Part shown: positions 50,611 through 64,000 of the stretch, in pieces | Layout: every line of letters starts with the position of its first letter | Position numbering within the stretch: the first letter of the stretch is position 1 | Source: Chitinophagaceae bacterium | Lineage (GTDB): Bacteria > Bacteroidota > Bacteroidia > Chitinophagales > Chitinophagaceae | DNA: 64,000 nt | Assembly (NCBI GenBank): GCA_024508725.1 | Contig: JANINS010000003.1 | Span: 1,240,001 to 1,304,000 of the forward strand | Direction: 5' to 3' | The notes under the pieces: generated by a model | Told to the model about the DNA's origin: nothing | The model's database searches: none | What the model saw: the letters and a program-made list of their open reading frames with translations, nothing else | Program-made: the position numbers and the translations under genes

Positions 50611-51006
50611 TTAAATCTCAAATTGTACGAGATCCTGCACTTTTTGGCTGATGAGATCCCGAACCTGATTGAATCCTACCGGCTCCATGTGCCTGGGATC
50701 CGGAATTTGCCAGTCGATGAACTTTTTTGCCGGCATCCACGGACAGGCATCACCACAACCCATTGTTATCACTGCATCGAATGGCGCAAACTGCTTTACC
50801 TCGTCTAAAGATTTGCTGTCGTGGGTTGACAGATCATAACCCAATTCTCTCATGGCTGCGATGGCTTTGGGATTTACCATACCCGAAGGCTTTGAACCTG
50901 CACTATAAGCTTCCACTTCGTTTCCGCCATGAATCTTTGCAAAAGCCTGTGCCATCTGGCTACGGTTTGCATTTTCGATACAAACAAAAAGCAGTTTCTT
51001 TTTCAT
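50611..51006 (-). CDS. arsC: Arsenate reductase, low-molecular-weight-phosphatase fold
   Basis: 131 residues. The phosphate-binding loop is FVCIENANRSQMAQAF (C-x5-R-S), and the second active-site region is VITMGCGDACPWMPAKKFID with two cysteines for the relay; IPDPRHM carries the catalytic Asp. This matches thioredoxin-linked ArsC of Gram-positive type, although the third Cys is placed as in GCGDAC. It reduces arsenate to arsenite in the cytoplasm. It is the last gene of the arsR-arsM-arsC unit, 44 bases after arsM. Confidence 0.9.
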   Translation of the reverse strand: MKKKLLFVCIENANRSQMAQAFAKIHGGNEVEAYSAGSKPSGMVNPKAIAAMRELGYDLSTHDSKSLDEVKQFAPFDAVITMGCGDACPWMPAKKFIDWQIPDPRHMEPVGFNQVRDLISQKVQDLVQFEI

Positions 51007-51050
51007 TTTTTAAAAGTAAACGCAGGCCAGGAAGACCTGCGTTGGTTTGT

Positions 51051-51890
51051 TTAGCAGCAGCCTGAACCTGGTGTACAGCACTCTTTTGGCTTCTCGGCAT
51101 ATACAGTAATGCTATAGATACCTACGTTGCTGTTGCGAAACGCATCGATATCTTCTTTGCTGAAATAGTTGATCAGAATATCATCGGGAAGAATAATACT
51201 TTTCTGTTTTTGAATGGTGATGTTCTGGAAACCTGAAGTTTTTATATGGCCCAGGTATTCTTCTTTTTGGATCGCACCGGAAACACAACCTGCATACAAC
51301 TCAGCAGCTTCTTTTAATTTATCAGGAAGCATTCCTTCCAAAACAATATCGGAGATACTGAAATGACCGCCAGGTTTCAATACCCTGAAAATTTCTTTGA
51401 ATACATTGGCTTTGTTGGGAACAAGGTTTAGTACACAATTGCTCACGATCACATCAGCCGTGTTTGCAGCAACAGGCATGTGTTCAATATCGCCCAACCT
51501 GAATTCTACATTATTGAGGTTGAGTTTGTCGGCATTGATCCTGGCTTTTTCGATCATCTTTTCAGTGAAATCGATACCGATCACTTTTCCGCTGTCGCCT
51601 GTAACAGATCTTGCTACAAATGCATCATTACCTGCACCACTTCCAAGATCAATAACAGTATCGCCTTCTTTGATCTTTGCAAACTCAGTTGGTAATCCGC
51701 AGCCTAATCCAAGATCTGCATCGGGATTATAGCCTTCCAGTGTGGAATAATCATCTGACATGATGTTGTATACCTCATCACTGCAGCAGCCTGATCCACA
51801 GCAGGAAGACTGGTTCTGGCTTAATGGCTGATCAGCGATCTGGCTATATTTTTCCTTAACAAGGTTCTTCAGTTCAGTTTCTGTTTGCAT
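51051..51890 (-). CDS. arsM: Arsenite S-adenosylmethionine methyltransferase
   Basis: 279 residues. The SAM-binding motif is VIDLGSGAGNDAFVARSVTG, followed by GIDFTEKMIEKAR. Arsenite-binding cysteines are placed as in ArsM: an N-terminal SSCCGSGCC, NCVLNL in the middle and YAGCVSGAI further on. The C-terminal CCTPGSGCC adds four more. ArsM turns arsenite into methylated, partly volatile forms. Sixteen bases follow arsR. No arsenite pump gene accompanies it, so methylation may be the main outlet or a pump lies elsewhere. Confidence 0.92.
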   Translation of the reverse strand: MQTETELKNLVKEKYSQIADQPLSQNQSSCCGSGCCSDEVYNIMSDDYSTLEGYNPDADLGLGCGLPTEFAKIKEGDTVIDLGSGAGNDAFVARSVTGDSGKVIGIDFTEKMIEKARINADKLNLNNVEFRLGDIEHMPVAANTADVIVSNCVLNLVPNKANVFKEIFRVLKPGGHFSISDIVLEGMLPDKLKEAAELYAGCVSGAIQKEEYLGHIKTSGFQNITIQKQKSIILPDDILINYFSKEDIDAFRNSNVGIYSITVYAEKPKECCTPGSGCC

Positions 51891-51906
51891 AAAATGTATT
51901 TAATGA

Positions 51907-52242
51907 TTAACAACAAGCTTTTTCATTTTTCTGCTTCAGGTTATCGAAGAGGCTGTTGAATTCGTTTTTAAAACCTTCGAATGCCGACCAGTTAATGCAA
52001 TAGCAGCTTCGGGGTCCATCAACAGTTCCTTTGATGAGCCCGGCATTATTCAGTTCTTTCAAATGTTGTGATACGGTGGACTGAGCCAGAGGTAATACTT
52101 CTACTATTTCGCCGCAAATGCATTCGTTCTTTTGAGCAAGCACTTTGAGTATTGCAATTCGTGCCGGGTGTGATAAAGCTTTGGCAAAGGCAGCCAGGTT
52201 CTGCTCCTTTTTACCAAACTCATCTCTTTTGTCGTAAGCCAT
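51907..52242 (-). CDS. arsR: ArsR-family metalloregulatory repressor
   Basis: 111 residues with a winged helix-turn-helix: [20 protein letters not shown], then [20 protein letters not shown] and [21 protein letters not shown] in the helix before recognition matches the arsenite-binding ELCVC of classic ArsR. Extra cysteines are RSCYC and the final ACC. It should release its operator when arsenite binds. The inverted repeat seven bases upstream of the start is a good operator candidate. It heads the unit with arsM and arsC. Confidence 0.93.
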
Positions 52243-52961: not shown

Positions 52962-53196
52962 ATTAAAAGCAACATATAACCGATCTCCAAAAGATATTGG
53001 TTCTTCGTTTTGTATTGTTACTTAAGACCAGCAATTATTATTTCTAAGATTTCCCTTCTTTTAGAAAACTTGTTAAATGACAGAAATCTGGCGTTACCGG
53101 CTGACCTGTATCACATCGTTTCTGATCGTTTTCTGTACTTTTAACCGCTGCAAATTTCAGCACTAACGATTGCTGGCTATTGAAACATTCAATAGC

Positions 53197-53895
53197 ATGG
53201 ATAAACTGGAACAATTACGCTCAGCTTTTGCTGAATTACCGCTTACAGATGCTTTGCATCTCACCACATCTTTATTTCCCGGAAAGGTGAAGTTCTCATC
53301 TTCCCTGGGACAGGAAGACCAGGTACTTACTGATATCATTGCATCCAATAATATTCCCGTAAACATTTTCACGATCGATACCGGCAGGTTGTTCAACGAA
53401 ACATATGAAACGTTGGATAAAACAGTTGCCAGGTACAAGATCGATATAGATGTATTTTTCCCGCAGGCAGAAGCTACACAGCAAATAGTAAAACAACACG
53501 GCATCAATCTTTTTTATGATTCAGTAGAGAACAGGAAGCTTTGTTGCGATGTGCGTAAAGTAGAACCTTTAATGAGAGCTTTACAAGGTGCAGCAGTATG
53601 GATCACCGGTTTACGGGCTGCTCAAACAGATCATAGAAAAAACATTCCCGTAGTTGAATGGCTTGAAGATAAAAAAATGTATAAGATCAATCCTTTGTTG
53701 TACTGGAGTTATGATGAAGTGATCGAACACCTGAATAAACATACAGTTCCTTATAATCCACTTCACGATAAAGGTTTCATCAGCATCGGTTGTGCTCCCT
53801 GTACAAGAGCGATAGAACCAGGTGAAGACCCAAGAGCCGGAAGATGGTGGTGGGAAATTTCACAAAAAGAGTGTGGTTTACACCTTGTAAAATAA
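53197..53895 (+). CDS. cysH: Adenylyl-sulfate (APS) reductase
   Basis: 232 residues from ATG 53197 (MDKLEQLRSAFAELPLTDAL); a TTG 27 bases earlier is in frame. The motifs are SSLGQEDQVLTDII, IFTIDTGRLFNETY, KLCCDVRKVEPL, GCAPCTRAIEPGEDPRAGRW and KECGLHLVK. The two cysteine pairs (CC and CxxC) bind a [4Fe-4S] cluster in APS reductases and are missing in PAPS reductases, so APS is the likely substrate. ECGLH carries the catalytic cysteine. It makes sulfite and AMP from APS with thioredoxin. It opens the sulfate-activation operon; cysD starts 50 bases after it. Confidence 0.93.
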   Translation: MDKLEQLRSAFAELPLTDALHLTTSLFPGKVKFSSSLGQEDQVLTDIIASNNIPVNIFTIDTGRLFNETYETLDKTVARYKIDIDVFFPQAEATQQIVKQHGINLFYDSVENRKLCCDVRKVEPLMRALQGAAVWITGLRAAQTDHRKNIPVVEWLEDKKMYKINPLLYWSYDEVIEHLNKHTVPYNPLHDKGFISIGCAPCTRAIEPGEDPRAGRWWWEISQKECGLHLVK

Positions 53896-53945
53896 ATTCA
53901 TTGCGAGGGAGGAACAACGGAAGCAATTACAATAAGAACTTAGAA

Positions 53946-54854
53946 ATGCTGATACAACACAGATCACAATTTGCAAGAGCTTTAGAAGATGAGGCAATAT
54001 ACATCATGAGAGAAGTAGCGGCCCAGTTCGAAAAGCCTGCATTACTTTTCTCGGGTGGAAAAGATTCTATCACCCTTGTTCATCTTGCCCGCAAGGCCTT
54101 TTTTCCTGCCAAACCCGCCTTCCCGATGTTGCATATAGATACCGGTCACAACTTTCCTGAAACAATTGAGTTCAGGGATTGGCTGGCTAAAGAAACAGGT
54201 ATGCAGCTTATCGTTCGTTACGTTCAGGATTCTATCGACAAAGGAAGAGTGAAAGAAGAAACAGGAAAATACGCCAGCCGTAATGTGTTGCAAACAACCA
54301 CATTGCTCGATGCTATTGAAGAACTAAAACTCGATGCCTGCATTGGTGGTGCAAGAAGAGACGAAGAAAAGGCAAGGGCTAAAGAAAGAATATTTTCTGT
54401 TCGTGATGATTTTGGTCAATGGGATGCAAAGAAGCAACGTCCGGAATTATTCGATATGCTGAATGGAAAGATCAACTTAGGTGAGAATGTAAGGGTATTC
54501 CCGATCAGCAACTGGACAGAACTTGACGTTTGGAATTATATCAAAGAAGAAGATCTTGCTTTGCCTTCCATCTATTTTGCACATAAACGAAAAATCATTG
54601 AAAGAGACGGGCTTTACTGGCCAGCTTCTGAATACCTCAACACAACAGAAGAAGAAATTCCTTTTGAAGCCACCGTTCGTTTCAGAACGGTTGGCGACAT
54701 GACCTGCACCGCTGCAGTACTTTCTGATGCTGCAGATCTTGACACTGTTATTGGTGAGATCAAAGAAGCAACGATCTCTGAACGTGGCGCCAGGATAGAT
54801 GATAAAAGAAGTGAAGCTGCCATGGAAAAACGCAAAAAAGAAGGTTATTTCTAA
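53946..54854 (+). CDS. cysD: Sulfate adenylyltransferase subunit 2
   Basis: 302 residues from ATG 53946 (MLIQHRSQFARALEDEAIYI). The frame is open 34 codons earlier but overlaps cysH and looks non-coding. The PP-loop is LLFSGGKDSITLVHLA, with LHIDTGHNFPETIEFRDWL, CIGGARRDEEKARAKERIFS and the C-terminal RSEAAMEKRKKEGYF typical of CysD. It makes APS from sulfate and ATP together with CysN. Its stop overlaps the start of the next gene (TAATG), so the fusion protein is translated right after it. Confidence 0.95.
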   Translation: MLIQHRSQFARALEDEAIYIMREVAAQFEKPALLFSGGKDSITLVHLARKAFFPAKPAFPMLHIDTGHNFPETIEFRDWLAKETGMQLIVRYVQDSIDKGRVKEETGKYASRNVLQTTTLLDAIEELKLDACIGGARRDEEKARAKERIFSVRDDFGQWDAKKQRPELFDMLNGKINLGENVRVFPISNWTELDVWNYIKEEDLALPSIYFAHKRKIIERDGLYWPASEYLNTTEEEIPFEATVRFRTVGDMTCTAAVLSDAADLDTVIGEIKEATISERGARIDDKRSEAAMEKRKKEGYF

Positions 54855-56149
54855 TGGCTACACTTGTAAAGCAATATACCAAACTACCCGTTAGCTTCAA
54901 CACCGCATCCATACATTGGCTGGTGGTGGGTGGTGGTGTTCAGGCATTACGTAGTGTAAGACTTTTGCTCAACAACGATCATCATGCCTCAATTACTGTA
55001 GTTGCAGAGTCATTTCACGGCTCTTTATTCAAAATGAGTGAAACACATAGCAACGTATCGCTCATCGAAAAAGCATTTGAACCTGCTGATTGTAACGAGG
55101 CCGGTGCTGTGATCATTGCAACAGGAAATGATGTTGTTGATGAAAGCATCCGCTCACAGGTAAAACAACAAAGACTATTGACCTGCCTGCCGGGCTATCC
55201 CGATTTAAGTGATTTCGTTTTGGAGAACACCGGTCTGGTTCAGCTGAAAAGATCGAATGTATATTGGCTCAACGACAGAGCCTGGAAACGCATCACCACT
55301 AAGATCATCATTGCATTTTCATTGATGGTGTTTGGCTATTTCGCCATTACGTATTTACCATTACCCTCAGGTAAAGAAACCTGGGCAGTGATAGCACCAC
55401 ACATCACCTGGCAATTACTTTTGTTTGTTCTGGCTGGTTTTCTTGCACAAATGGTAGATGGTTTATTAGGTATGGGCTATGGAGTAACATCAGCTACCTG
55501 TCTCATGGCTTTTGGTGTAAACCCTGTTGCGATGAGTGCATCCATACACACTTCAGAAATATTCACTACCGGTATATCAGGTTATAGCCACTATCGCTTT
55601 GGCAACGTGAATAAAAAATTATTCAGGCATCTTGTAATTCCTGGTGCCATTGGTGCTGTGGCCGGTGCATTATTGTTGGTTTACCTGGGAGATAACTATG
55701 GAAAAATATTGATGCCGGTGATCGCTTTATATGCAGGCTTTCTCGGCTTCAGAATTTTATACAAGGCTTTTAAAGAACCAACAAGAGGAAAAAAAGTAAA
55801 ACGCATTGGCTGGCTGGCAGGAGTTGGAGGGTTTCTCGATTCTTTTGGTGGAGGTGGATGGGGACCGATCGTTACCAGCAGCCTGATGGCAAAAGGAAGA
55901 TCACCCAAATACACGATCGGATCGGTAAATCTTACAGAGTTCTTTGTAACACTGTCAAGTGCATTTGCATTCTTCCTTACAATCGGTATTACGCATTGGA
56001 CTATCGTTTTGGGTTTATTGATCGGCGGAAGCATCGCAGCACCAATAGCAGCAAGACTCACCGGCAAACTGCCGAGAAAAACAATGATGATCGGTGTGGG
56101 ATTGATGGTGATCATCTGGTGTGTAAGAATGATCATTAAAAGCCTGTGA
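54854..56149 (+). CDS. Fusion of a siroheme-synthase (CysG-N/Met8)-like Rossmann domain and a TauE/SafE permease
   Basis: 431 residues. Residues about 18-145 match the NAD-binding domain of precorrin-2 dehydrogenase: HWLVVGGGVQALRSVRLLLN, ITVVAES, GAVIIATGNDVVDESI and SDFVLENTG. The catalytic Asp region (ATDDD in CysG) is ATGND, so dehydrogenase or chelatase activity is uncertain. From about 150 on there are about eight helices of the TSUP (TauE/SafE) family with DGLLGMGYGVTSATCL and FLDSFGGGGWGPIVTSSLMA. TSUP proteins move sulfate, sulfite or other sulfur anions. It lies between cysD and cysN and overlaps cysD by one base, so it is part of the pathway: probably sulfate uptake or sulfite export under control of the bound nucleotide. 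That last point is inference. Confidence 0.85.
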   Translation: MATLVKQYTKLPVSFNTASIHWLVVGGGVQALRSVRLLLNNDHHASITVVAESFHGSLFKMSETHSNVSLIEKAFEPADCNEAGAVIIATGNDVVDESIRSQVKQQRLLTCLPGYPDLSDFVLENTGLVQLKRSNVYWLNDRAWKRITTKIIIAFSLMVFGYFAITYLPLPSGKETWAVIAPHITWQLLLFVLAGFLAQMVDGLLGMGYGVTSATCLMAFGVNPVAMSASIHTSEIFTTGISGYSHYRFGNVNKKLFRHLVIPGAIGAVAGALLLVYLGDNYGKILMPVIALYAGFLGFRILYKAFKEPTRGKKVKRIGWLAGVGGFLDSFGGGGWGPIVTSSLMAKGRSPKYTIGSVNLTEFFVTLSSAFAFFLTIGITHWTIVLGLLIGGSIAAPIAARLTGKLPRKTMMIGVGLMVIIWCVRMIIKSL

Positions 56150-56240
56150 CAGAGGCAAAACTTAAAGAGGAAAAGTGCAGAACTGTTGTTGGCAAAATAA
56201 GTCAGATAAGCAGTCAAATTAATAATCAAAAGCTCGGCCT

Positions 56241-56274
56241 CCCTCTCCTTTGGAGAGGGAAAGAGGGTGAGGTC
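56241..56274 (+). repeat. Dispersed CTCCTTTGGAGAGGG element, copy 2
   Basis: CCCTCTCCTTTGGAGAGGGA, then AAGAGGGTGAGGTC, nine bases before the cysN ATG. It matches the copy at 5471-5504 in sequence, orientation and position relative to the next gene. It keeps the upstream frame open, which would add a false N-terminus to cysN. Confidence 0.7.
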
Positions 56275-56283
56275 AAAACTAAA

Positions 56284-57534
56284 ATGGACATATTAAAAAT
56301 AGCAACAGCAGGAAGTGTAGACGATGGCAAGAGTACTTTGATCGGCAGATTACTGTACGATACAAAATCGGTAACAAAAGATAAACTCGAAGCCATTGAA
56401 ACATCGAGCCAGCGTAAAGGATTAGACTTCGTTGATCTTTCTTTATTAACTGATGGATTGATCGCTGAAAGAGAACAGGGCATTACCATCGATGTAGCCC
56501 ATATCTATTTCGCTACGTCAACACGTAAATACATCATTGCAGATTCTCCCGGCCATATCGAATACACGAGGAACATGATCACCGGTGCTTCCAATGCAGA
56601 AGTATTTATTGTACTGATCGATGCCCGCAATGGTGTAATAGAACAAACACGCAGGCACCTGTTCATTGCTTCGTTATTAAAAGTTGAAACAGTATTCGTT
56701 TGCATCAACAAAATGGATCTTGTACAATATGACCAGGATGTTTTTGAAAAGATCAAAACAGAAGTAGAACAACTAACGGCAACGATTCATTTTGGAGGAA
56801 AAACTATATTCATTCCTATATCGGCTAAGTATGGTGTGAATGTGGTAGAAACGTCTGAAACGATCAGTTGGTATAATGGCAGATCATTACTTAATTATCT
56901 TGAAGAAACATCGGTACACCAGAAAGATCTTTCACTGCCCTTGCGTTTGCCGGTGCAGTTGGTGATTCGTCCACACTCTGATGAACACCATGATTTCAGG
57001 GGATATGCCGGTAAGCTATTCTCGGGCAAAATAGAAGAGGGACAAAAAGTGACCATACTCCCATCAATGCAAAATGCTACCGTAAAAACTGTGTGGCATG
57101 CAGAGCAGTCCACCAGATCGGCTATTGCAGGGCAAAGTGTAACGATTGAGCTAAATGAAGATGTTGACCTCAGCCGTGGCAATATGATCGTGGCTGCAGA
57201 TGCACCTTTCACACAATCAAATGTAATAACAGCTTCTGTTTGCTGGCTGAATGAGGAGGCTTTGATGATGAACAAGAGCTACCTGTTGCAACATGGAGTG
57301 AACACGGTGAAAGCAAAGCTCACATCAATAGAGAACAAATTGGATCTTACTTCGATGAGCGTTGTAGACGATGTTAACGAGATAAAGCTAAACGACATTG
57401 CAAAGGTGTGTTTGAAAACAGCAAGTCCTGTATTTGCAGATACATACCAGGTCAATCCCAAGAACGGTGCTTTCATTCTGATAGATACAGCCACCAACAA
57501 CACGGTGGCAGTAGGTTTTATTGAGCATTTGTAA
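56284..57534 (+). CDS. cysN: Sulfate adenylyltransferase subunit 1 (GTPase)
   Basis: 416 residues from ATG 56284 (MDILKIATAGSVDDGKSTLI). The in-frame extension upstream passes through a dispersed repeat and is rejected. GTPase motifs: GSVDDGKSTL (G1), EREQGITIDVAH (G2), DSPGHIEYTRNM (G3), NKMD (G4). Two beta-barrel domains follow as in EF-Tu. The protein ends at IEHL, with no fused APS kinase, unlike the CysNC of some bacteria; cysC follows as its own gene after 17 bases. GTP hydrolysis by CysN drives APS formation by CysD. Confidence 0.95.
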   Translation: MDILKIATAGSVDDGKSTLIGRLLYDTKSVTKDKLEAIETSSQRKGLDFVDLSLLTDGLIAEREQGITIDVAHIYFATSTRKYIIADSPGHIEYTRNMITGASNAEVFIVLIDARNGVIEQTRRHLFIASLLKVETVFVCINKMDLVQYDQDVFEKIKTEVEQLTATIHFGGKTIFIPISAKYGVNVVETSETISWYNGRSLLNYLEETSVHQKDLSLPLRLPVQLVIRPHSDEHHDFRGYAGKLFSGKIEEGQKVTILPSMQNATVKTVWHAEQSTRSAIAGQSVTIELNEDVDLSRGNMIVAADAPFTQSNVITASVCWLNEEALMMNKSYLLQHGVNTVKAKLTSIENKLDLTSMSVVDDVNEIKLNDIAKVCLKTASPVFADTYQVNPKNGAFILIDTATNNTVAVGFIEHL

Positions 57535-57551
57535 AACATATTTTTGCATGA

Positions 57552-58172
57552 ATGTTGAACAGCCTCTCTCAAATACCAACGCAACCTGACCTCACTTCAG
57601 AGGTCTTTGCTGTTTCACGTTTACAAAAAGAAACACTTAACGGGCATAAGGCCATAACGCTTTGGCTCACGGGCCTATCCGCTTCAGGAAAATCTACTAT
57701 TGCCAGGCTGCTCGAAGAACAATTGCATTACCAGGGAATCAGAACAATTATTCTGGATGGGGATAATACAAGGCTTGGTATTAACAAGGATCTCGATTTT
57801 TCGCCAGCCGGCAGAACAGAGAATATCAGGCGTGTTGCAGAGATCGCCAAGCTGATGAATGATGCCGGTATTGTAACCATTGCCTGCTTCATATCACCGA
57901 TGATCGCAGATCGACAGATGGCAAAACAGATTATTGGTGAACACTCATTCTTTGAAGTATTTATTGATGCACCATTAAGTGTATGTATGGAACGTGATCC
58001 CAAAGGATTATACAAGAAAGCTGTTGCAGGTGCGGTGAAAGATTTTACAGGTATCACTGCTCCTTACGAGGCACCCACCAATGCTGATATCCGTATCGAA
58101 ACTACTGTACATAACTCTACCGAATCGGCAAATGAACTCCTTACCTGGATCCAGGCAAATAAACTACTGTAA
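57552..58172 (+). CDS. cysC: Adenylylsulfate kinase
   Basis: 206 residues. The P-loop is LWLTGLSASGKSTIARLLEE. DGDNTRLGINKDLDFSPAGR, ENIRRVAEIAKLMNDAGIV and FIDAPLSVCMERDPKGLYKK follow, and FTGITAPYEAPTNADI completes the APS kinase pattern. It phosphorylates APS to PAPS. Since the operon's CysH looks like an APS reductase, PAPS is not needed for sulfate reduction and may feed the sulfotransferase two genes on. Seventeen bases separate it from cysN. Confidence 0.95.
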   Translation: MLNSLSQIPTQPDLTSEVFAVSRLQKETLNGHKAITLWLTGLSASGKSTIARLLEEQLHYQGIRTIILDGDNTRLGINKDLDFSPAGRTENIRRVAEIAKLMNDAGIVTIACFISPMIADRQMAKQIIGEHSFFEVFIDAPLSVCMERDPKGLYKKAVAGAVKDFTGITAPYEAPTNADIRIETTVHNSTESANELLTWIQANKLL

Positions 58173-58262
58173 TAATACTTTGCAGATATGGATTTTCTTA
58201 TGCCGAATATACCAGCTTATCAAGGTTTTGTCGGCAGATGAAAATATATTTGCAGCTCAATA

Positions 58263-59186
58263 ATGATGCGTTATCAATACTGGGGTTTTGGACTTAATAT
58301 AGACTCGGAAATAGAGTTCCCTGAGCTGTTACCCTCCACATTTAATAAGACCGATGTAGTTGTATCTATCGGTGCAACACCAAGTATATTGGTTGGAGAA
58401 AATGTAATTCATAAAGTAAGAATGAGTGCTTCTCCAACAGAATATCTTTTAGATGTTCTGAATGTAGCCCGTTACTATGCCACTGATGGAAATAAGATCA
58501 TTATCGAACCGTATAGCAAAGCAGATAAGCACAGCATCCGGTTGTTCATGCTTAGTAATGCAATGGCTGCCATCCTTCATCAACAGAAGAAAATTCCTTT
58601 TCACGCTTCCGGTATTATAACTGATAACGGACTTGTTTTATTTACCGGAAATTCTGGTGCCGGTAAATCAACTACCGCATGCGGACTAATAGAACTTGGC
58701 TATAAATTATTTACAGATGATGTTTGTGTGCTTAATCTAAATAAAGAGACCGGCAAAGTAGAGGCTACACCATCATATCCAATGATGAAGCTCTGGAATA
58801 ATACGATCAACCAGATTAACTACAACAAAACAGATGCTCATCAATTAAGACCGCACATCGAGAAATATGGATTTCATCAGCATGACCATTTTAGTACAGC
58901 TTCATTACGTGTTGTCCAGGTAATCGTGCTGAAAAAAGATGATTCCGCAGCCCAATATCATAGCACACCTTTGAACACTCTCGCAGCTTTTAACGAACTA
59001 CAGCAAAATACTTACAGGCGTTCCCATGTTGACATGATGAATCTTCGTGAAGAACACTTTAGGATGATCAGCAGTTTAACACAGCAGGCTAAGGTTATCG
59101 AGATACGTCGTCCGGAAAATCATAATAACATTCCTGACTTTATTTCGTACATTCATTTGCTGATCAACACCAATGCCCCAGCCTAA
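58263..59186 (+). CDS. HPr-kinase-like (PEPCK-fold) P-loop protein
   Basis: 307 residues. The N-terminal 110 residues form a strand-rich domain of unknown type (MMRYQYWGFGLNIDSEIEFP). Then IPFHASGIITDNGLVLFTGN, SGAGKSTTACGLIELGYKLF and TDDVCVLNL match the core of HPr kinase/phosphorylase (HGV-like, P-loop GxSGxGKS, then the D-D pair), but HPr-specific C-terminal parts are missing. Such proteins phosphorylate diverse targets, including peptide natural products. A TATATTTG box at 58245-58252 could be a -7 element of an internal promoter. The gene starts 90 bases after cysC and overlaps the next gene by 14 bases. Confidence 0.75.
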   Translation: MMRYQYWGFGLNIDSEIEFPELLPSTFNKTDVVVSIGATPSILVGENVIHKVRMSASPTEYLLDVLNVARYYATDGNKIIIEPYSKADKHSIRLFMLSNAMAAILHQQKKIPFHASGIITDNGLVLFTGNSGAGKSTTACGLIELGYKLFTDDVCVLNLNKETGKVEATPSYPMMKLWNNTINQINYNKTDAHQLRPHIEKYGFHQHDHFSTASLRVVQVIVLKKDDSAAQYHSTPLNTLAAFNELQQNTYRRSHVDMMNLREEHFRMISSLTQQAKVIEIRRPENHNNIPDFISYIHLLINTNAPA

Positions 59187-59943
59187 TATCGTTTGGCTTG
59201 TTTCTTACCCCTATTGTGGAAATGATTTGTTCAAATCATTTTTCACTGCGCTATTAGAAAAAAATGAGCCAATTAAAACGAAGATATTTCCCAGTACGGA
59301 TATCTTTAAATTTTATACAGACCTTGATCCTGGTTATTTGTATGATGAAGAAGTTTCGTTATTACTTCCTGCGGTATATACTGCTTTATCGAACGAGGCA
59401 GAAACGACAACTTTTATCGAAACGGATGATGCTTACACAAAGAATGCATCCGGCTTGCCGATATTCCCACCCGCTATTACAAAAGCTGCTCTTTACATAG
59501 TCAGGAACCCTCTTGATATCGTTGCTCTTTATTCAAACAATTTGAGCTCAACTATAGATGATGCCATTGATGCAATGAGTACTTCATTCAGAAGTAAGAC
59601 AGATCAAAGAAATACTTATAGCCCATTCAAACTGCCAATGCTAAGCTGGAGTGAGCATGTACAAAGCTGGGTAAAGCAAACATTTTTCCCGGTACATGTG
59701 ATACGTTATGAAGACCTGATCAGAGATCCGGTATCAACAGTCTTGGCAATAGTAAAAAATCTTGAACTGGAAATAAAAGAAAAAGATATAACGGGATTAA
59801 TTGATTGTATTGGGTTTAGAAATTATGCAAAAAGGTCAGCTACAGTTACAAAACAACAGGCTCAATCAATTCTTGATCATCATAGCGAAGTGATGAAAGA
59901 ATATGGATACAATATCAACTTAAACGAATATTCCATCCGATAA
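59173..59943 (+). CDS. Sulfotransferase-like protein
   Basis: 256 residues. WLVSYPYCGNDLFKSFFTAL is the 5'-phosphosulfate loop; in active enzymes it reads SYPKSGNTWLR, so the catalytic lysine is a tyrosine here. ALYIVRNPLDIVALYSNNLS is the 3'-phosphate loop (RNP-x-D). VHVIRYEDLIRDPVSTVLAI is the next conserved block. The fold looks complete, the chemistry is in doubt. With cysC two genes upstream the cell can make PAPS for it. The 14-base overlap with the HprK-like gene suggests the two proteins work together. The target is unknown. Confidence 0.75.
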   Translation: MPQPNIVWLVSYPYCGNDLFKSFFTALLEKNEPIKTKIFPSTDIFKFYTDLDPGYLYDEEVSLLLPAVYTALSNEAETTTFIETDDAYTKNASGLPIFPPAITKAALYIVRNPLDIVALYSNNLSSTIDDAIDAMSTSFRSKTDQRNTYSPFKLPMLSWSEHVQSWVKQTFFPVHVIRYEDLIRDPVSTVLAIVKNLELEIKEKDITGLIDCIGFRNYAKRSATVTKQQAQSILDHHSEVMKEYGYNINLNEYSIR

Positions 59944-60089: not shown

Positions 60090-63000
60090 TTACTTCGCTT
60101 TTACCATCGGGATGATCTTCTTATCGCTTCCCTGTATCACTTCAGCATAATATGCACCATTTGCATACTTTTCGCCAAACAATACAGTTCTTCCTGCCAT
60201 CACACCTTTCATTACTTCAACAGTACGTCCAAAGGCATCGATGATCCTGATGTTGATATCAGTAAACTTATCATCAGATTTTACAGTTAATGAGAACTGG
60301 TTGGCTGTTGGATTTGGATACAGGCTCACTCCAAAGGTTTCAACAGTTGGCGCTACACCTCTTGCATATGGTGAGTTACAAGACGGTTGAACACAGCTGT
60401 TACCTAATCCATCACCGCCATGATTCGGTACGTGTGTAGGCACCGCATTGACGCTAACATCAATGTACTGAACGTTTGCAGGATTACCCGGAGGCAGGTG
60501 ACAAACGATCACTTTCTTACCATCCCATTTACCATTCTTATCCAGCGATCTCACATCTCTCACACAGATACTGATCGTTGCAGTACTTGTACATCCATTC
60601 GCATTCTTCACTGCTACAGTGAATGTGTAGTTGCCTGCTGATGTACCTGGTGTAAAGATCGGAGCAGCAGAAGTGTTGTTGTTCAGGCCTGTTCCTGTCC
60701 ACTGGAAAGTATATGGTCCGCCGGTGTTTGGAACATTCACCTGCAACTTGGTGCTTTGTGCACCGTAACCTACATAAAGGTTGTTGGCATTACCACCTGT
60801 TGGTGTATTATCAGTTGGTATCGATACAATAGATGTTGCAAAATTACATGCAGGAGCAGCTTTCACGATAATGGTTTGTGTACCTGAAATCGTTCTGCCC
60901 AATCCATCTTTTACTGTCCAAACTACCAGCGTTGTTCCAACAGGATATACATTGTTTGCCGGTGCATTATTGGTTAAAGTTGCCGGGTTCACGCTCACTG
61001 TGTAAGTGGCTGTTCCGATAGTAACGGTTGCACTTGTTGCACCCGGAGCTGTAGTAACAGTAACATCAGCCGGAGGAACGATCGTTGGTGCTGCACTTAC
61101 TACGATCACCTTTTGTGTAACAGTAGTTGTTTTACCGTATTTATCAGTCAAGGTCCATGTAACGATAGTAGTACCGATTGGGAACTGAGCCGGTGCATTA
61201 TTGGTTAGTGTAACCGGACCCACTGCATCGTAGGTTGGAGCTACCAATGTTATCGTTGCATAAGCAACACCAGGATTATTGCTTACAGTGATATCAGATA
61301 AAGTATTCAGCTTAGGCAATGGTGCCACAACAATCACTTGCTGTACATCACTTGCTGTTCTGTTGATACCATCTTTTACAGTCCATGTAATGTTGGTCGT
61401 TCCAACAGGGTACTGGCTCAATGTTCCGGTATTCGTTACAGTAGCCGGATCAACGGCTACCGTTGTTGTTGGTGTACCAAGGCTTAACACTGTTGCAAAG
61501 CCATTGTATCCTGCAGTTACAGTGACAGAAGGAGGTGCAACGATGGTTGGTGCAGGACTTACCACCGTTACGATCGCTGTACCGGTAGATATGTTTCCTG
61601 CATTATCCGTTACAGTTAATGTAACCGTATTATCACCCAGGTTGGTTCCGTTGAAACTTGTTTTGCTTAAGCTGATGTTGGCTATTCCGCAATTATCAGA
61701 AGAACCATTGTTCACCTGTGCTGCTGTTACCGTAGCAGTTCCATTTGAAGAAAGTGATACGGTTACGTTCTGTGTTTTTACAACCGGTGCGATCTTATCA
61801 GCTACATTAACGGTGAAGCTGTAAGTTGATGTATTCACTCCGTCTGAAGCTTTCCATGAAATAGTAGTTACACCGGCATTCAATGCTACACCAGCGAGGT
61901 TGGTACCTGTTCCTGTAGTAGCTCCACTCAACGTGTAAGTAAGTGAAGGTGTACCGCAATTATCAGTAGCCGTTGTATTGAACTCAGTGCCATTGACCAC
62001 ATAAGTACATCCTGCAGTAACATCCCTGTTCACATTGCTTCCGTTAGCAATTACCGTTGTACTGCCAGATGTAAGTGTTGCATTGAAATGAGATGGTGAA
62101 ATATCACCACCGCTGTGATAGAAAGTCTGGCCAATGATCTGTCCTTTCAGGATCGTTTGATTGCTTGATTTCGTGATGTCTGCACAAGGAGCGAAAATGG
62201 TTCCATGTACATTACCGCTGCCCTGGATATTGAGTGCAGTTGCATTATAGAAATTGTAGATCACATATTTCGCATTCTCGTCGCTCAAACCATTGTGATT
62301 ATACGCTTTCCAGTTATATGTACCTATTGCATCAACATTAATAACCAGGATTCTGCTGGCAGAAGGTTGATTGGTAAATGTGATCTCCTGTACATTCACA
62401 AGATCAGTGCCTTTTACATTCAGGTAGTTCACTGCATTTGGCAACTCTACTCTTACCTGGGATGGTAAGTTGGTATGTGCCAATATTACATTGCTGTAAT
62501 TTTTCAGTATCACATTGTCTGAACCGGTGCTCATGCTTACAGCACTCGCTTTCATCTTAGTGAATGCAGCATCGAAGTCGATCAATCCACTTTCGAACAC
62601 CGGATTGTTGGTAGCACTTACGTTGATGTTATTAGCGCTCACCTGCAGGTTGATCCTTGGTGATGCATTATAGTTATTGTTTGGCGTGATGCGGATCGGA
62701 GAATATGCGTTATTCTGGTCTTTATACCATGCATAAGCACCATTCGCTGTGCCGATCTTAACATACCCGTTCTGGTTCACATTCATATTACCGCTCTGGA
62801 AGTTCACTTTGCCACCTACCACCAGCGTAACAGGCACATTCGATACTTTGAAAGTTCCTTTATAATTATTCGATACTTCGTAATTACCGGCAAGCGTCAT
62901 ATCACCACCAATTGCAACGGGGCCCATTGTTTTGCTGCCGATAAGTGTTGCATTCTTTTGTGTGAACACTGTAAAATCAAGTGCAGGCGCAACAGGATTT

Positions 63001-64000
63001 TGCGTGATCATAGTACCGGAAACAGGTCCGGCAATCACCGGTGCATTGTTATCTGCTACGGTTACAGTGTATTTGTAAGTAACGGTCTGGCCATTGCTTA
63101 CAGCAGTCCATGTTACCAATGTAACACCTGCATTAAACGTTTTACCTGCAAGGCTTGTACCCGTACCTGTAGTAGCACCCGTTAATACATACGTAGCTGT
63201 TACCGGTGTTCCGTTTACAGTAGCTAAAGCGTTATCATTTGCAGTAGCCACATAAGAACAACCGTTCTTAGTTATGTTTCCGTTGTCTGGCACAGGACCT
63301 GAAACAACAGGAGGATAATTTTCTTTAACGATGATCTGTTGTATGGCAGAAACTGATCTTCCTAAACCATCTTTCACTGTCCATGTGATGGTTGTTGTTC
63401 CAACCTGGTATTGATTGTTTGCCGGTGCATTGTTGGTTAATGTGGCCGGATCAACAGATACCGTATATGTAGCTGTACCAATGTTATTGATCACAGCATA
63501 ATTCTGGCCGGCGATCGCATCAACAGTGATCGTTGCCGGTGCAACAATCGTTGGAGCTGCACTCACTACGGTTACGGTAGTAGTGGTAGTGGTTGAATTA
63601 CCGTGAGCATCTGTCAACGTCCAGGTTACGGTGGTAGTTCCTACAGGGAATTCTGCAGGTGCATCGTTCTTCAATGTATAAGGGCCTACTGCCTGGAATG
63701 CAGGATCAACCAATACCACCTGTGTAGAATATGGCTGACCCGGATCGTTGCTGATGGTAATATCTGCCGGTGAAGTGATCTGAGGAGCAGGCACCGTAAC
63801 GACAACTTTCTGCACATCGCTTGCTTCTCTGCCAATACCATCTTTAACGGTCCATTCAACGAACGTCGTACCGATAGGATACTGAGCCAATGTTCCGGTA
63901 GTTGTTACGGTAGCAGGATCGATAGATACTGTTGTTGTTGGTGTACCCAGGTTTGGTGCTGTTGCAAAGCCGTTGTAGTCTGCCACTATTGTGATAGCCC
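60090..64000 (-). CDS. Giant HYR-repeat surface protein with choice-of-anchor-A domain and T9SS sorting tail (5' end outside window)
   Basis: At least 1303 residues; the frame continues beyond 64000 (AITIVADYNGFA), so a GTG at 63986 is internal. The protein is a chain of HYR/Ig-like repeats: PVGTTTVTWTLTDAHGNSTT, then YPVGTTNITWTVKDGINRTA and YPVGTTLVVWTVKDGLGRTI. A choice-of-anchor-A-like domain lies in the middle (about 330-660 of the visible part) with IGGDMTLAGNYEVSN, VVGGKVNFQSGNMNVNQNG and GNVHGTIFAPCADITKSSNQ. The C-terminus is a T9SS type A sorting domain (SLYPNPTANQFSLTVKSDDK to KIIPMVKAK). It should be secreted and fixed to the cell surface, probably as an adhesin. The repeats recombine easily, so length may vary between strains. 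Confidence 0.9.
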   Translation of the reverse strand, partial: AITIVADYNGFATAPNLGTPTTTVSIDPATVTTTGTLAQYPIGTTFVEWTVKDGIGREASDVQKVVVTVPAPQITSPADITISNDPGQPYSTQVVLVDPAFQAVGPYTLKNDAPAEFPVGTTTVTWTLTDAHGNSTTTTTTVTVVSAAPTIVAPATITVDAIAGQNYAVINNIGTATYTVSVDPATLTNNAPANNQYQVGTTTITWTVKDGLGRSVSAIQQIIVKENYPPVVSGPVPDNGNITKNGCSYVATANDNALATVNGTPVTATYVLTGATTGTGTSLAGKTFNAGVTLVTWTAVSNGQTVTYKYTVTVADNNAPVIAGPVSGTMITQNPVAPALDFTVFTQKNATLIGSKTMGPVAIGGDMTLAGNYEVSNNYKGTFKVSNVPVTLVVGGKVNFQSGNMNVNQNGYVKIGTANGAYAWYKDQNNAYSPIRITPNNNYNASPRINLQVSANNINVSATNNPVFESGLIDFDAAFTKMKASAVSMSTGSDNVILKNYSNVILAHTNLPSQVRVELPNAVNYLNVKGTDLVNVQEITFTNQPSASRILVINVDAIGTYNWKAYNHNGLSDENAKYVIYNFYNATALNIQGSGNVHGTIFAPCADITKSSNQTILKGQIIGQTFYHSGGDISPSHFNATLTSGSTTVIANGSNVNRDVTAGCTYVVNGTEFNTTATDNCGTPSLTYTLSGATTGTGTNLAGVALNAGVTTISWKASDGVNTSTYSFTVNVADKIAPVVKTQNVTVSLSSNGTATVTAAQVNNGSSDNCGIANISLSKTSFNGTNLGDNTVTLTVTDNAGNISTGTAIVTVVSPAPTIVAPPSVTVTAGYNGFATVLSLGTPTTTVAVDPATVTNTGTLSQYPVGTTNITWTVKDGINRTASDVQQVIVVAPLPKLNTLSDITVSNNPGVAYATITLVAPTYDAVGPVTLTNNAPAQFPIGTTIVTWTLTDKYGKTTTVTQKVIVVSAAPTIVPPADVTVTTAPGATSATVTIGTATYTVSVNPATLTNNAPANNVYPVGTTLVVWTVKDGLGRTISGTQTIIVKAAPACNFATSIVSIPTDNTPTGGNANNLYVGYGAQSTKLQVNVPNTGGPYTFQWTGTGLNNNTSAAPIFTPGTSAGNYTFTVAVKNANGCTSTATISICVRDVRSLDKNGKWDGKKVIVCHLPPGNPANVQYIDVSVNAVPTHVPNHGGDGLGNSCVQPSCNSPYARGVAPTVETFGVSLYPNPTANQFSLTVKSDDKFTDINIRIIDAFGRTVEVMKGVMAGRTVLFGEKYANGAYYAEVIQGSDKKIIPMVKAK

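Follow-up and report, generated by a model that had tools for sequence, protein, structure and literature searches.

The run of genes described here closes with a gene for an HprK-like kinase and a gene for a sulfotransferase-like protein. It lies in a 64,000-nucleotide stretch from a Chitinophagaceae bacterium (assembly GCA_024508725.1, contig JANINS010000003.1, positions 1,240,001 to 1,304,000), referred to below as the window. As a sequence-only reading of this stretch had described, cysC and these two genes end a run that starts with cysH, cysD, a TauE-type gene and cysN, and the open reading frames (ORFs) of the kinase and the sulfotransferase overlap by 14 bases (59173-59186). The same reading had proposed that the 3′-phosphoadenosine 5′-phosphosulfate (PAPS) made through cysC goes to the sulfotransferase-like protein. 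We rejected this proposal for the window copy on its motif losses: because nearly the whole PAPS and catalytic site has been lost, use of PAPS and sulfation by this protein are unlikely. We consider it likely that the two genes provide the tailoring end of a lasso-peptide pathway of the paeninodin type, distributed over three blocks, and that its product is phosphorylated and not sulfated by the pseudoenzyme.

In an alignment to 87 other sulfotransferases, the window protein keeps 26 of the 56 columns that are conserved at 85% or more. Eight residues identical in all 87 others are replaced: Lys14, Ser15, Thr18, Trp19, Arg21, Lys83, His85 and Ser119. The first five belong to the 5′-phosphosulfate-binding (PSB) loop, where the sequence Lys-Ser-Gly-Asn-Thr-Trp is absent and YCGNDL stands instead, with Gly16 and Asn17 retained. 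The KxH motif, whose Lys and His we take to be catalytic in sulfotransferases, is changed at both positions (Lys83 to Glu and His85 to Asp). At the 3′-phosphate site Ser119 is replaced by Leu and Arg111 is retained, and the FFRxGxxGxW block, which forms the RxG loop, is missing through an in-frame deletion of about 26 residues; the roles given here for the Arg and Ser of this site and for the RxG loop are presumed ones. Among the 87 others, the F, F, R, G and W of the deleted block are each conserved in 82 to 86 sequences, and its second G in 74. Positions of the scaffold, for example Trp159, Ser165, Trp166 and the RYED stretch, are retained. When the columns were sorted by site, 3 of 19 PAPS-site columns were found to be kept versus 23 of the remaining 37 (p = 0.0015); leaving out the deleted block reduces the former count to 3 of 10 (p = 0.086). 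This sorting used presumed residue roles from SULT enzymes, and the alignment to solved sulfotransferases covers three segments only, namely the PSB loop, the RNP stretch and the FRKG loop.

The structural model of the protein has a predicted local distance difference test score (pLDDT) of 87.4 and a predicted template modeling score (pTM) of 0.86. Its best structural match is Teg12 (Z 17.1, root-mean-square deviation 3.1, 207 residues aligned), indicating that the sulfotransferase fold is present. Searches with the window protein or the alignment A1 as query found 15 other kinase-linked sulfotransferases, all of which have the PSB loop and adjoin a kinase gene; one lacks the KxH pattern as written, one has an altered RxG stretch and one, in genome G643, is broken into two reading frames. 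This last gene (L071, 4681-5431) encodes pieces of 207 and 62 residues, and either an assembly error or decay is possible. The same searches also gave six sulfotransferase-like proteins, spread over three genomes, for which no kinase match was present. The dead form is known from one genome, where it is the only match to PF00685 and also the only match to PF13469, the latter below the cut-off. Within a clade of seven kinase-sulfotransferase couples, the window kinase has identities of 39-46% to the other six, similar to the 36-52% that these have to each other; the window sulfotransferase, at 34-40% to its counterparts, which share 44-54%, is the outlier. Its terminal branch (1.12) is the third longest of 74. 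The protein is best read as a pseudoenzyme that appears to have lost its activity and is either kept as a partner or decaying.

The kinase looks intact from its sequence. It retains 29 of 30 conserved columns, and its GxSGxGKS P-loop (residues 129-136), His114, Asp152-Asp153, Arg196 and Lys201 are all present. The fold of its AlphaFold2 model (pLDDT 96.0, pTM 0.92) matches phosphoenolpyruvate carboxykinase (PEPCK) and HprK; in Foldseek the top matches were PEP carboxykinases, and HprK chains ranked after them. Scores against the models of bona fide HPr(Ser) kinase/phosphorylase were below the cut-offs (TIGR00679, 25.0 vs 240 bits; NF003883, 26.5 vs 252 bits). HPr-kinase homologues of lasso clusters are reported to phosphorylate the side chain of a C-terminal Ser (PMC8498205).

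The pair does not stand alone in the window genome, a possibility that we rejected because lasso-type genes lie outside the window. About 5 kb beyond its right end, the ORF G000:C3:1309027-1309467 (G000 is the window genome) is the sole Transglut_core3 match of the genome. It scores 77.5 bits against NF033537, "lasso biosynthesis B2" (cut-off 33), and its Cys and His-Ala-Trp positions align. Its neighbours on the same strand are a cyclase gene of the asparagine-synthase type (C3:1307041-1308891) and, next to that, a precursor-like ORF (C3:1306870-1307025); this block lies 7-10 kb downstream of the kinase-sulfotransferase pair. The sole PqqD match of the genome is a B1-like ORF (C3:1363587-1363874), 54 kb from B2. 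An ATP-binding cassette (ABC) transporter gene and a PF14907 nucleotidyltransferase gene adjoin it, in a block 64-67 kb downstream. All three blocks fall within 75 kb on one contig. By eye, one very long repeat-rich adhesin-like gene fills the space between the sulfotransferase and the precursor (60090-64000, on to G000:C3:1306650).

As read by eye, the predicted precursor of the window genome has the leader TWSEPKITVL, with Thr at leader position -2, and the core GGGSGDDDLAFGLS. The only hydroxyls of this core are those of Ser4 and Ser14, and the precursor ends in Ser. A Thr at leader position -2 is reported for lasso precursors (PMC10368454). A lasso precursor would also be expected to have a YxxP-like leader motif and, as acceptor, an Asp or Glu at core position 7-9. 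The sequence-only reading had pointed to small genes beside the pair in other genomes, and precursor-like ORFs were indeed found near relatives as well as in the window genome. In 10 of 10 module-bearing genomes (G000 and those of loci L044, L045, L046 and L068-L073, drawn from fifteen couple-bearing genomes found by whole-genome searches), at least one small ORF combines a leader motif of the W/F/YxxP type with Ser or Thr as its last residue, ORFs judged spurious being ignored. Precursors were sought in 25 hand-chosen loci and were judged by eye among ORFs that include evidently spurious ones. The final Ser/Thr is as expected, because lasso kinases are reported to phosphorylate a C-terminal Ser (PMC8498205). 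Tyr was not kept as a general sulfated residue, since the predicted cores of G000, G536 and G274 contain no Tyr by eye. At one locus of Aquirufa nivalisilvae (L103, 14112-18253) we observed fourteen tandem precursor-like ORFs with cysC nearby; four of the fourteen end in Ser/Thr.

We then took a profile census of 88 sulfotransferase genes, comprising 78 from a contig scan, nine from other genomes and the window copy. The contig scan contributed the best 80 of 580 matches, which by their titles come from many phyla. Its motif patterns favour intact PSB and RNP stretches, and therefore the sample says nothing on how frequent dead copies are. Two duplicates (L074 of L068 and L077 of L069), copies from the window genome and small loci at the same place were dropped before counting. 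The kinase gene lies directly upstream on the same strand in 74 of the 88, and a chance pairing was therefore rejected. At least one of the lasso genes B1, B2 and C occurs in the available DNA of 76 of the 88 loci, and two or more occur in 69; among the 12 loci with no lasso gene in the available DNA are the window and some short contigs. Five loci (L102, L107, L135, L141 and L152) had no kinase in the available DNA. The tie to tailoring of peptide natural products that had been suggested thus held, as relatives lie in lasso clusters and the lasso-type genes of the window genome lie downstream of the window. It had also been proposed that a pair found apart, and far from cysC, would speak against a shared role. 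The kinase and sulfotransferase genes are mostly together, but cysC is often far away, because strong cys genes were seen in the available DNA of only 14 of the 88 loci.

Whole genomes were also searched, with the window genome included in each count. Matches to the kinase were found in 3 of 39 close genomes and to the sulfotransferase in 2 of 39; the sulfotransferase was matched in 8 of 395 phylum genomes and in 7 of 394 family genomes. Among 315 class genomes the sulfotransferase alignment found a match in 20, in many of them a weak one, and only matches above 76 bits were examined. With the kinase as query, 227 of 395 phylum genomes were matched, mostly through short, weak P-loop stretches, and a first contig scan with a single kinase as query found no relative. 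For comparison, 31 kinase-only loci, 26 of them with a lasso gene, were hand-chosen from the best kinase matches. One locus comparison left out L109, which has a stop codon in its stretch, and the last codon was trimmed from the other locus stretches. In six Bacteroidota lasso clusters (L044, L045, L048, L068, L069 and L070) we saw by eye three tandem phage-tail-collar-like proteins, and five of the six have an intact formyltransferase-like ORF; PF07484 and the formyltransferase domains were tested in L068 only. None of these ORFs were seen in the ORF lists of the window genome (L066, L067, L177 and L178).

The linkage of PAPS genes to the module, which the sequence-only reading had also put forward, is clearest in the Chitinophagaceae; the part that does not stand is the use of PAPS by the window copy itself. 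cysC (apsK) scored above the cut-off in 113 of 394 genomes of the family. It was present in 6 of the 7 sulfotransferase-bearing genomes compared with 107 of the 387 others (Fisher p = 0.0027), a test which assumes that both searches covered the same 394 genomes. The seventh genome, G643, in which cysC was not detected, is 65% complete. In all six genomes the gap between cysC and the sulfotransferase gene is 1.0 to 8.6 kb, whereas the chance of finding one randomly placed gene within 10 kb is about 0.005 in each; the six are not independent, as three come from one genus and two of those have the same layout. The window runs cysH-D-TauE-N-C-kinase-sulfotransferase and L068 has a single run of cysC-cysD-cysN-B1-B2-kinase-sulfotransferase. 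L069 has cysC alone, and in L070, L072 and L073 cysC is part of a longer protein. In these last three it forms the end of the protein, preceded by about 100 extra N-terminal residues that are presumably DUF2061-like. Across the census, strong cys genes were found at 14 of 88 sulfotransferase loci and at none of the 26 kinase-only loci with a lasso gene (p = 0.037), a modest contrast; the 14 leave out a false cysN match in L138. Sulfation by the sulfotransferases of intact relatives is likely.

As a control, 20 of the 107 cysC-bearing family genomes without the sulfotransferase were examined. cysD or cysN was near cysC in 8 of them; in the fetched DNA cysH was found in 0 of 20 at 60 bits or more, with a one-sequence cysH model, and this sulfotransferase or kinase was likewise found in 0 of 20 at 60 bits or more. 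One control locus (L216) has by eye a lasso-type cluster with cysD-cysN-cysC, a kinase-like ORF truncated at the edge and a sulfotransferase-like protein whose sequence belongs to a different type.

The cysteine pairs of CysH (KLCCDVRK and GCAPCTR), which had led to its description as an APS (adenosine 5′-phosphosulfate) reductase, are accompanied by profile scores of the same sense, and CysH scores as a thioredoxin-dependent APS reductase that would use APS. It exceeds the cut-off of TIGR02055 (Table 1) and falls far below that of TIGR02057, the PAPS-reductase model (155.3 vs 254.2 bits); cysC is therefore probably superfluous for sulfur assimilation. A weak CysQ match in the genome (99 vs 228.8 bits) says little. 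The cysH ORF starts with TTG, and the ATG at 53197-53199 is the likelier start; the true start of cysN is probably downstream of its GTG, as the model match starts at residue 50. One protein of the operon (54854-56149) combines a sulfite-exporter domain with an NAD-binding domain at its N terminus that resembles the one in siroheme synthase. The sequence TATATTTG lies upstream of the kinase at 58245-58252 and matches what we take to be the Bacteroidota -7 promoter element, TANNTTTG; a well-spaced -33 element was not seen there. The kinase and sulfotransferase genes may have a promoter of their own. On the opposite strand before the operon (50611-52242), an arsenic-like gene trio was recognized by eye, consisting of a small phosphatase/arsenate-reductase-like gene, a Cys-rich methyltransferase gene and an ArsR-type repressor gene.

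Table 1. Features of the gene run in the window (positions within the 64,000-nucleotide stretch).
Feature	Position	Strand	Evidence
cysH, APS-reductase type	53170..53895	+	TIGR02055 243.6 bits vs cut-off 235.3
cysD, sulfate adenylyltransferase subunit 2	53844..54854	+	TIGR02039 403.7 bits vs cut-off 396.6
TauE/SafE-type exporter with N-terminal NAD-binding domain	54854..56149	+	PF01925 and PF13241, both above cut-off
cysN, sulfate adenylyltransferase subunit 1	56146..57534	+	TIGR02034 479.8 bits vs cut-off 336.1
cysC, APS kinase (PAPS synthesis)	57552..58172	+	PF01583 E 4.7e-62; TIGR00455 above cut-off
HprK-like kinase, putative lasso-peptide kinase	58263..59186	+	PF07475 E 3.3e-6, below Pfam cut-off
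Putative pseudo-sulfotransferase (presumed loss of activity)	59173..59943	+	PF00685 E 1.3e-10, above cut-off
Degenerate 5′-phosphosulfate loop	59206..59229	+	YPYCGNDL vs YPKSGNTW in relatives

Gene content, linkage, motif loss, kinase conservation and predicted folds are the observed features; the substrate, the order of steps and the loss of activity we infer. The likely pathway would comprise a first block with the PAPS operon, the kinase and the sulfotransferase, a second with B2, cyclase and precursor, and a third with the B1-like or RiPP-recognition-element (RRE)-like gene, the ABC transporter and the nucleotidyltransferase (RiPP, ribosomally synthesized and post-translationally modified peptide). 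The kinase would phosphorylate the C-terminal Ser of the lasso precursor, its presumed substrate. In relatives, a PAPS-dependent sulfotransferase, encoded by a gene that overlaps or touches the kinase gene, would add sulfate, in some cases supplied by linked cysC, cysD and cysN genes. In the window genome the sulfotransferase has kept its reading frame and fold without the PAPS and catalytic site. The product would probably be phosphorylated only, because the loss of that site makes sulfation by this copy improbable.

Several observations weigh against this interpretation. All the core lasso genes lie outside the window in blocks far apart, and two of them match only their general families: the cyclase is above the cut-off of PF00733 and below that of NF033535 (336.8 vs 525 bits), and the B1-like ORF is above the cut-off of PF05402 and below that of NF033536 (72.5 vs 80 bits). 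No family model matched the precursor. The nearest relatives also differ between the parts, being L076 for B1, B2 and cyclase, L070 for the kinase, L068 for the sulfotransferase and L044 for the transporter and nucleotidyltransferase. The position of the window also differs between the tree of the kinase and that of the sulfotransferase, each with weak support (0.37 and 0.81, respectively), and in the ratio of sulfotransferase to kinase terminal branches the window ranks third of 74 and not first. Arg111 and 23 of the 37 other conserved columns are retained, so some ligand binding is possible, and the PAPS operon is intact despite the dead-looking state of its presumed user. In addition, published passages describe one lasso kinase that targets a ring Ser (PMC10368454) and a non-lasso RiPP family that also has HprK-like kinases, together with an RRE and a nucleoside triphosphate (NTP) transferase, in which the kinase modifies core Ser3 (PMC13381572).

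With regard to what the inactive copy does, a tentative possibility is that it has been selected as a co-translated, non-catalytic partner of the lasso kinase, which might for example hold the precursor or tune the site and frequency of Ser phosphorylation. If so, the two enzymes of intact couples would form a single complex acting on a shared C-terminal residue, and lasso sulfation and phosphorylation would be coupled. It is also conceivable, though somewhat doubtful, that the sulfotransferase gene, and perhaps the dispersed pathway in its entirety, is in decay and has no present function. The longer branch of the sulfotransferase relative to its sister, its lost conserved sites and deletion, the scattered lasso genes and the failure to detect the pair in the one further genome from this genus, which is 76% complete, agree with decay. 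However, the kinase is conserved, the pathway genes found in the genome are open, and the losses cluster in the PAPS-site columns. In a neutral simulation, the probability of encountering no stop codon was 0.22, 0.075 and 0.02 at 10, 16 and 25% amino-acid change; as frameshifts were ignored, this is suggestive only.

That the PAPS serves another consumer, and that the neighbourhood of cysC to the kinase and sulfotransferase is incidental, is unlikely. The dead appearance of the window sulfotransferase is in its favour, as is the presence of cysC in family genomes without the sulfotransferase, which shows that cysC has other uses, near cysD or cysN in some of those examined. Yet cysC is within 10 kb of this sulfotransferase in all six genomes, and the genome contains no other PF00685 or PF13469 match, a search that did not extend to other sulfotransferase families. 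We regard it as very unlikely that the sulfotransferase is active and uses CysC-made PAPS through a non-canonical site to give a product both phosphorylated and sulfated. The linked intact operon, the linkage across the family, the kept fold, Arg111 and open frame, and the standing of the protein as the sole sulfotransferase match could all be accommodated, but eight invariant residues are replaced relative to the 87 others (78 of which come from the scan favouring intact patterns), the FFRxGxxGxW segment is deleted, and the PSB loop is retained in all 15 other kinase-linked sulfotransferases found with the window protein or A1 as query. It is equally improbable that CysH uses PAPS in vivo and that cysC serves ordinary assimilation, as its place after cysN in the cysH run might imply, given the model scores, the cysteine pairs of iron-sulfur APS reductases and the control genomes, in which the absence of cysH from the fetched DNA indicates that cysC is not usually tied to cysH in the family.

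We prefer the reading as a split lasso pathway with an inactive sulfotransferase, and it leads to the prediction that bacteria of several phyla, many of them Bacteroidota, make lasso peptides that are phosphorylated and, if their sulfotransferase is intact, sulfated as well, with PAPS supplied from linked genes in some of them. PAPS genes could then flag lasso clusters in genome mining, and the dead window copy would be a natural control for a non-chemical role of the sulfotransferase half. A partial literature search, covering few subscription papers, turned up neither a sulfated lasso peptide nor a lasso cluster described as containing PAPS genes, which is weak evidence of absence. The terms "sulfo" and "hprk" do not occur in PMC10352776, on Bacteroidales RiPPs, and in PMC10885120 and PMC12446376 "sulfated" refers to things other than lasso peptides.

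The closest known systems are the paeninodin-type clusters, which according to PMC8498205 contain an HPr-kinase homologue and, in some Firmicutes clusters, a putative sulfotransferase gene. They share with the window genome B2, a transporter, an HprK-like kinase, a nucleotidyltransferase and a precursor with C-terminal Ser, a predicted one in the window genome; the window genome differs in belonging to the Bacteroidota, in its three blocks, in the joining of the couple to a cysH-D-N-C operon and in the loss of the PAPS site. The same accessory pair, an HPr kinase and a sulfotransferase, occurs in some lasso clusters of anaerobes, where its role was called unclear (PMC4289311); those strains are called Gram-positive, and the passage does not mention PAPS genes. 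The RaxST-RaxP-RaxQ system resembles the window module in that one gene set encodes a peptide sulfotransferase together with the ATP sulfurylase and the APS kinase that serve it (PMC4216712, PMC9484694). It differs in that Tyr of RaxX is sulfated and that the passages seen contain no lasso genes; the core predicted for the window genome has no Tyr. The nearest solved structures, by both profile and fold, are the glycopeptide-antibiotic sulfotransferases Teg12, Teg14 and StaL. These act on glycopeptides, and Teg12 keeps its PSB loop (SYPKAGNTW), which the window protein has lost. A precedent for a silent sulfotransferase fold is SULT4A1, in which loop 3 is shortened and PAPS is not bound; this vertebrate protein is described (PMC11275347) as conserving the PAPS-binding domains and active-site His that the window protein has lost.

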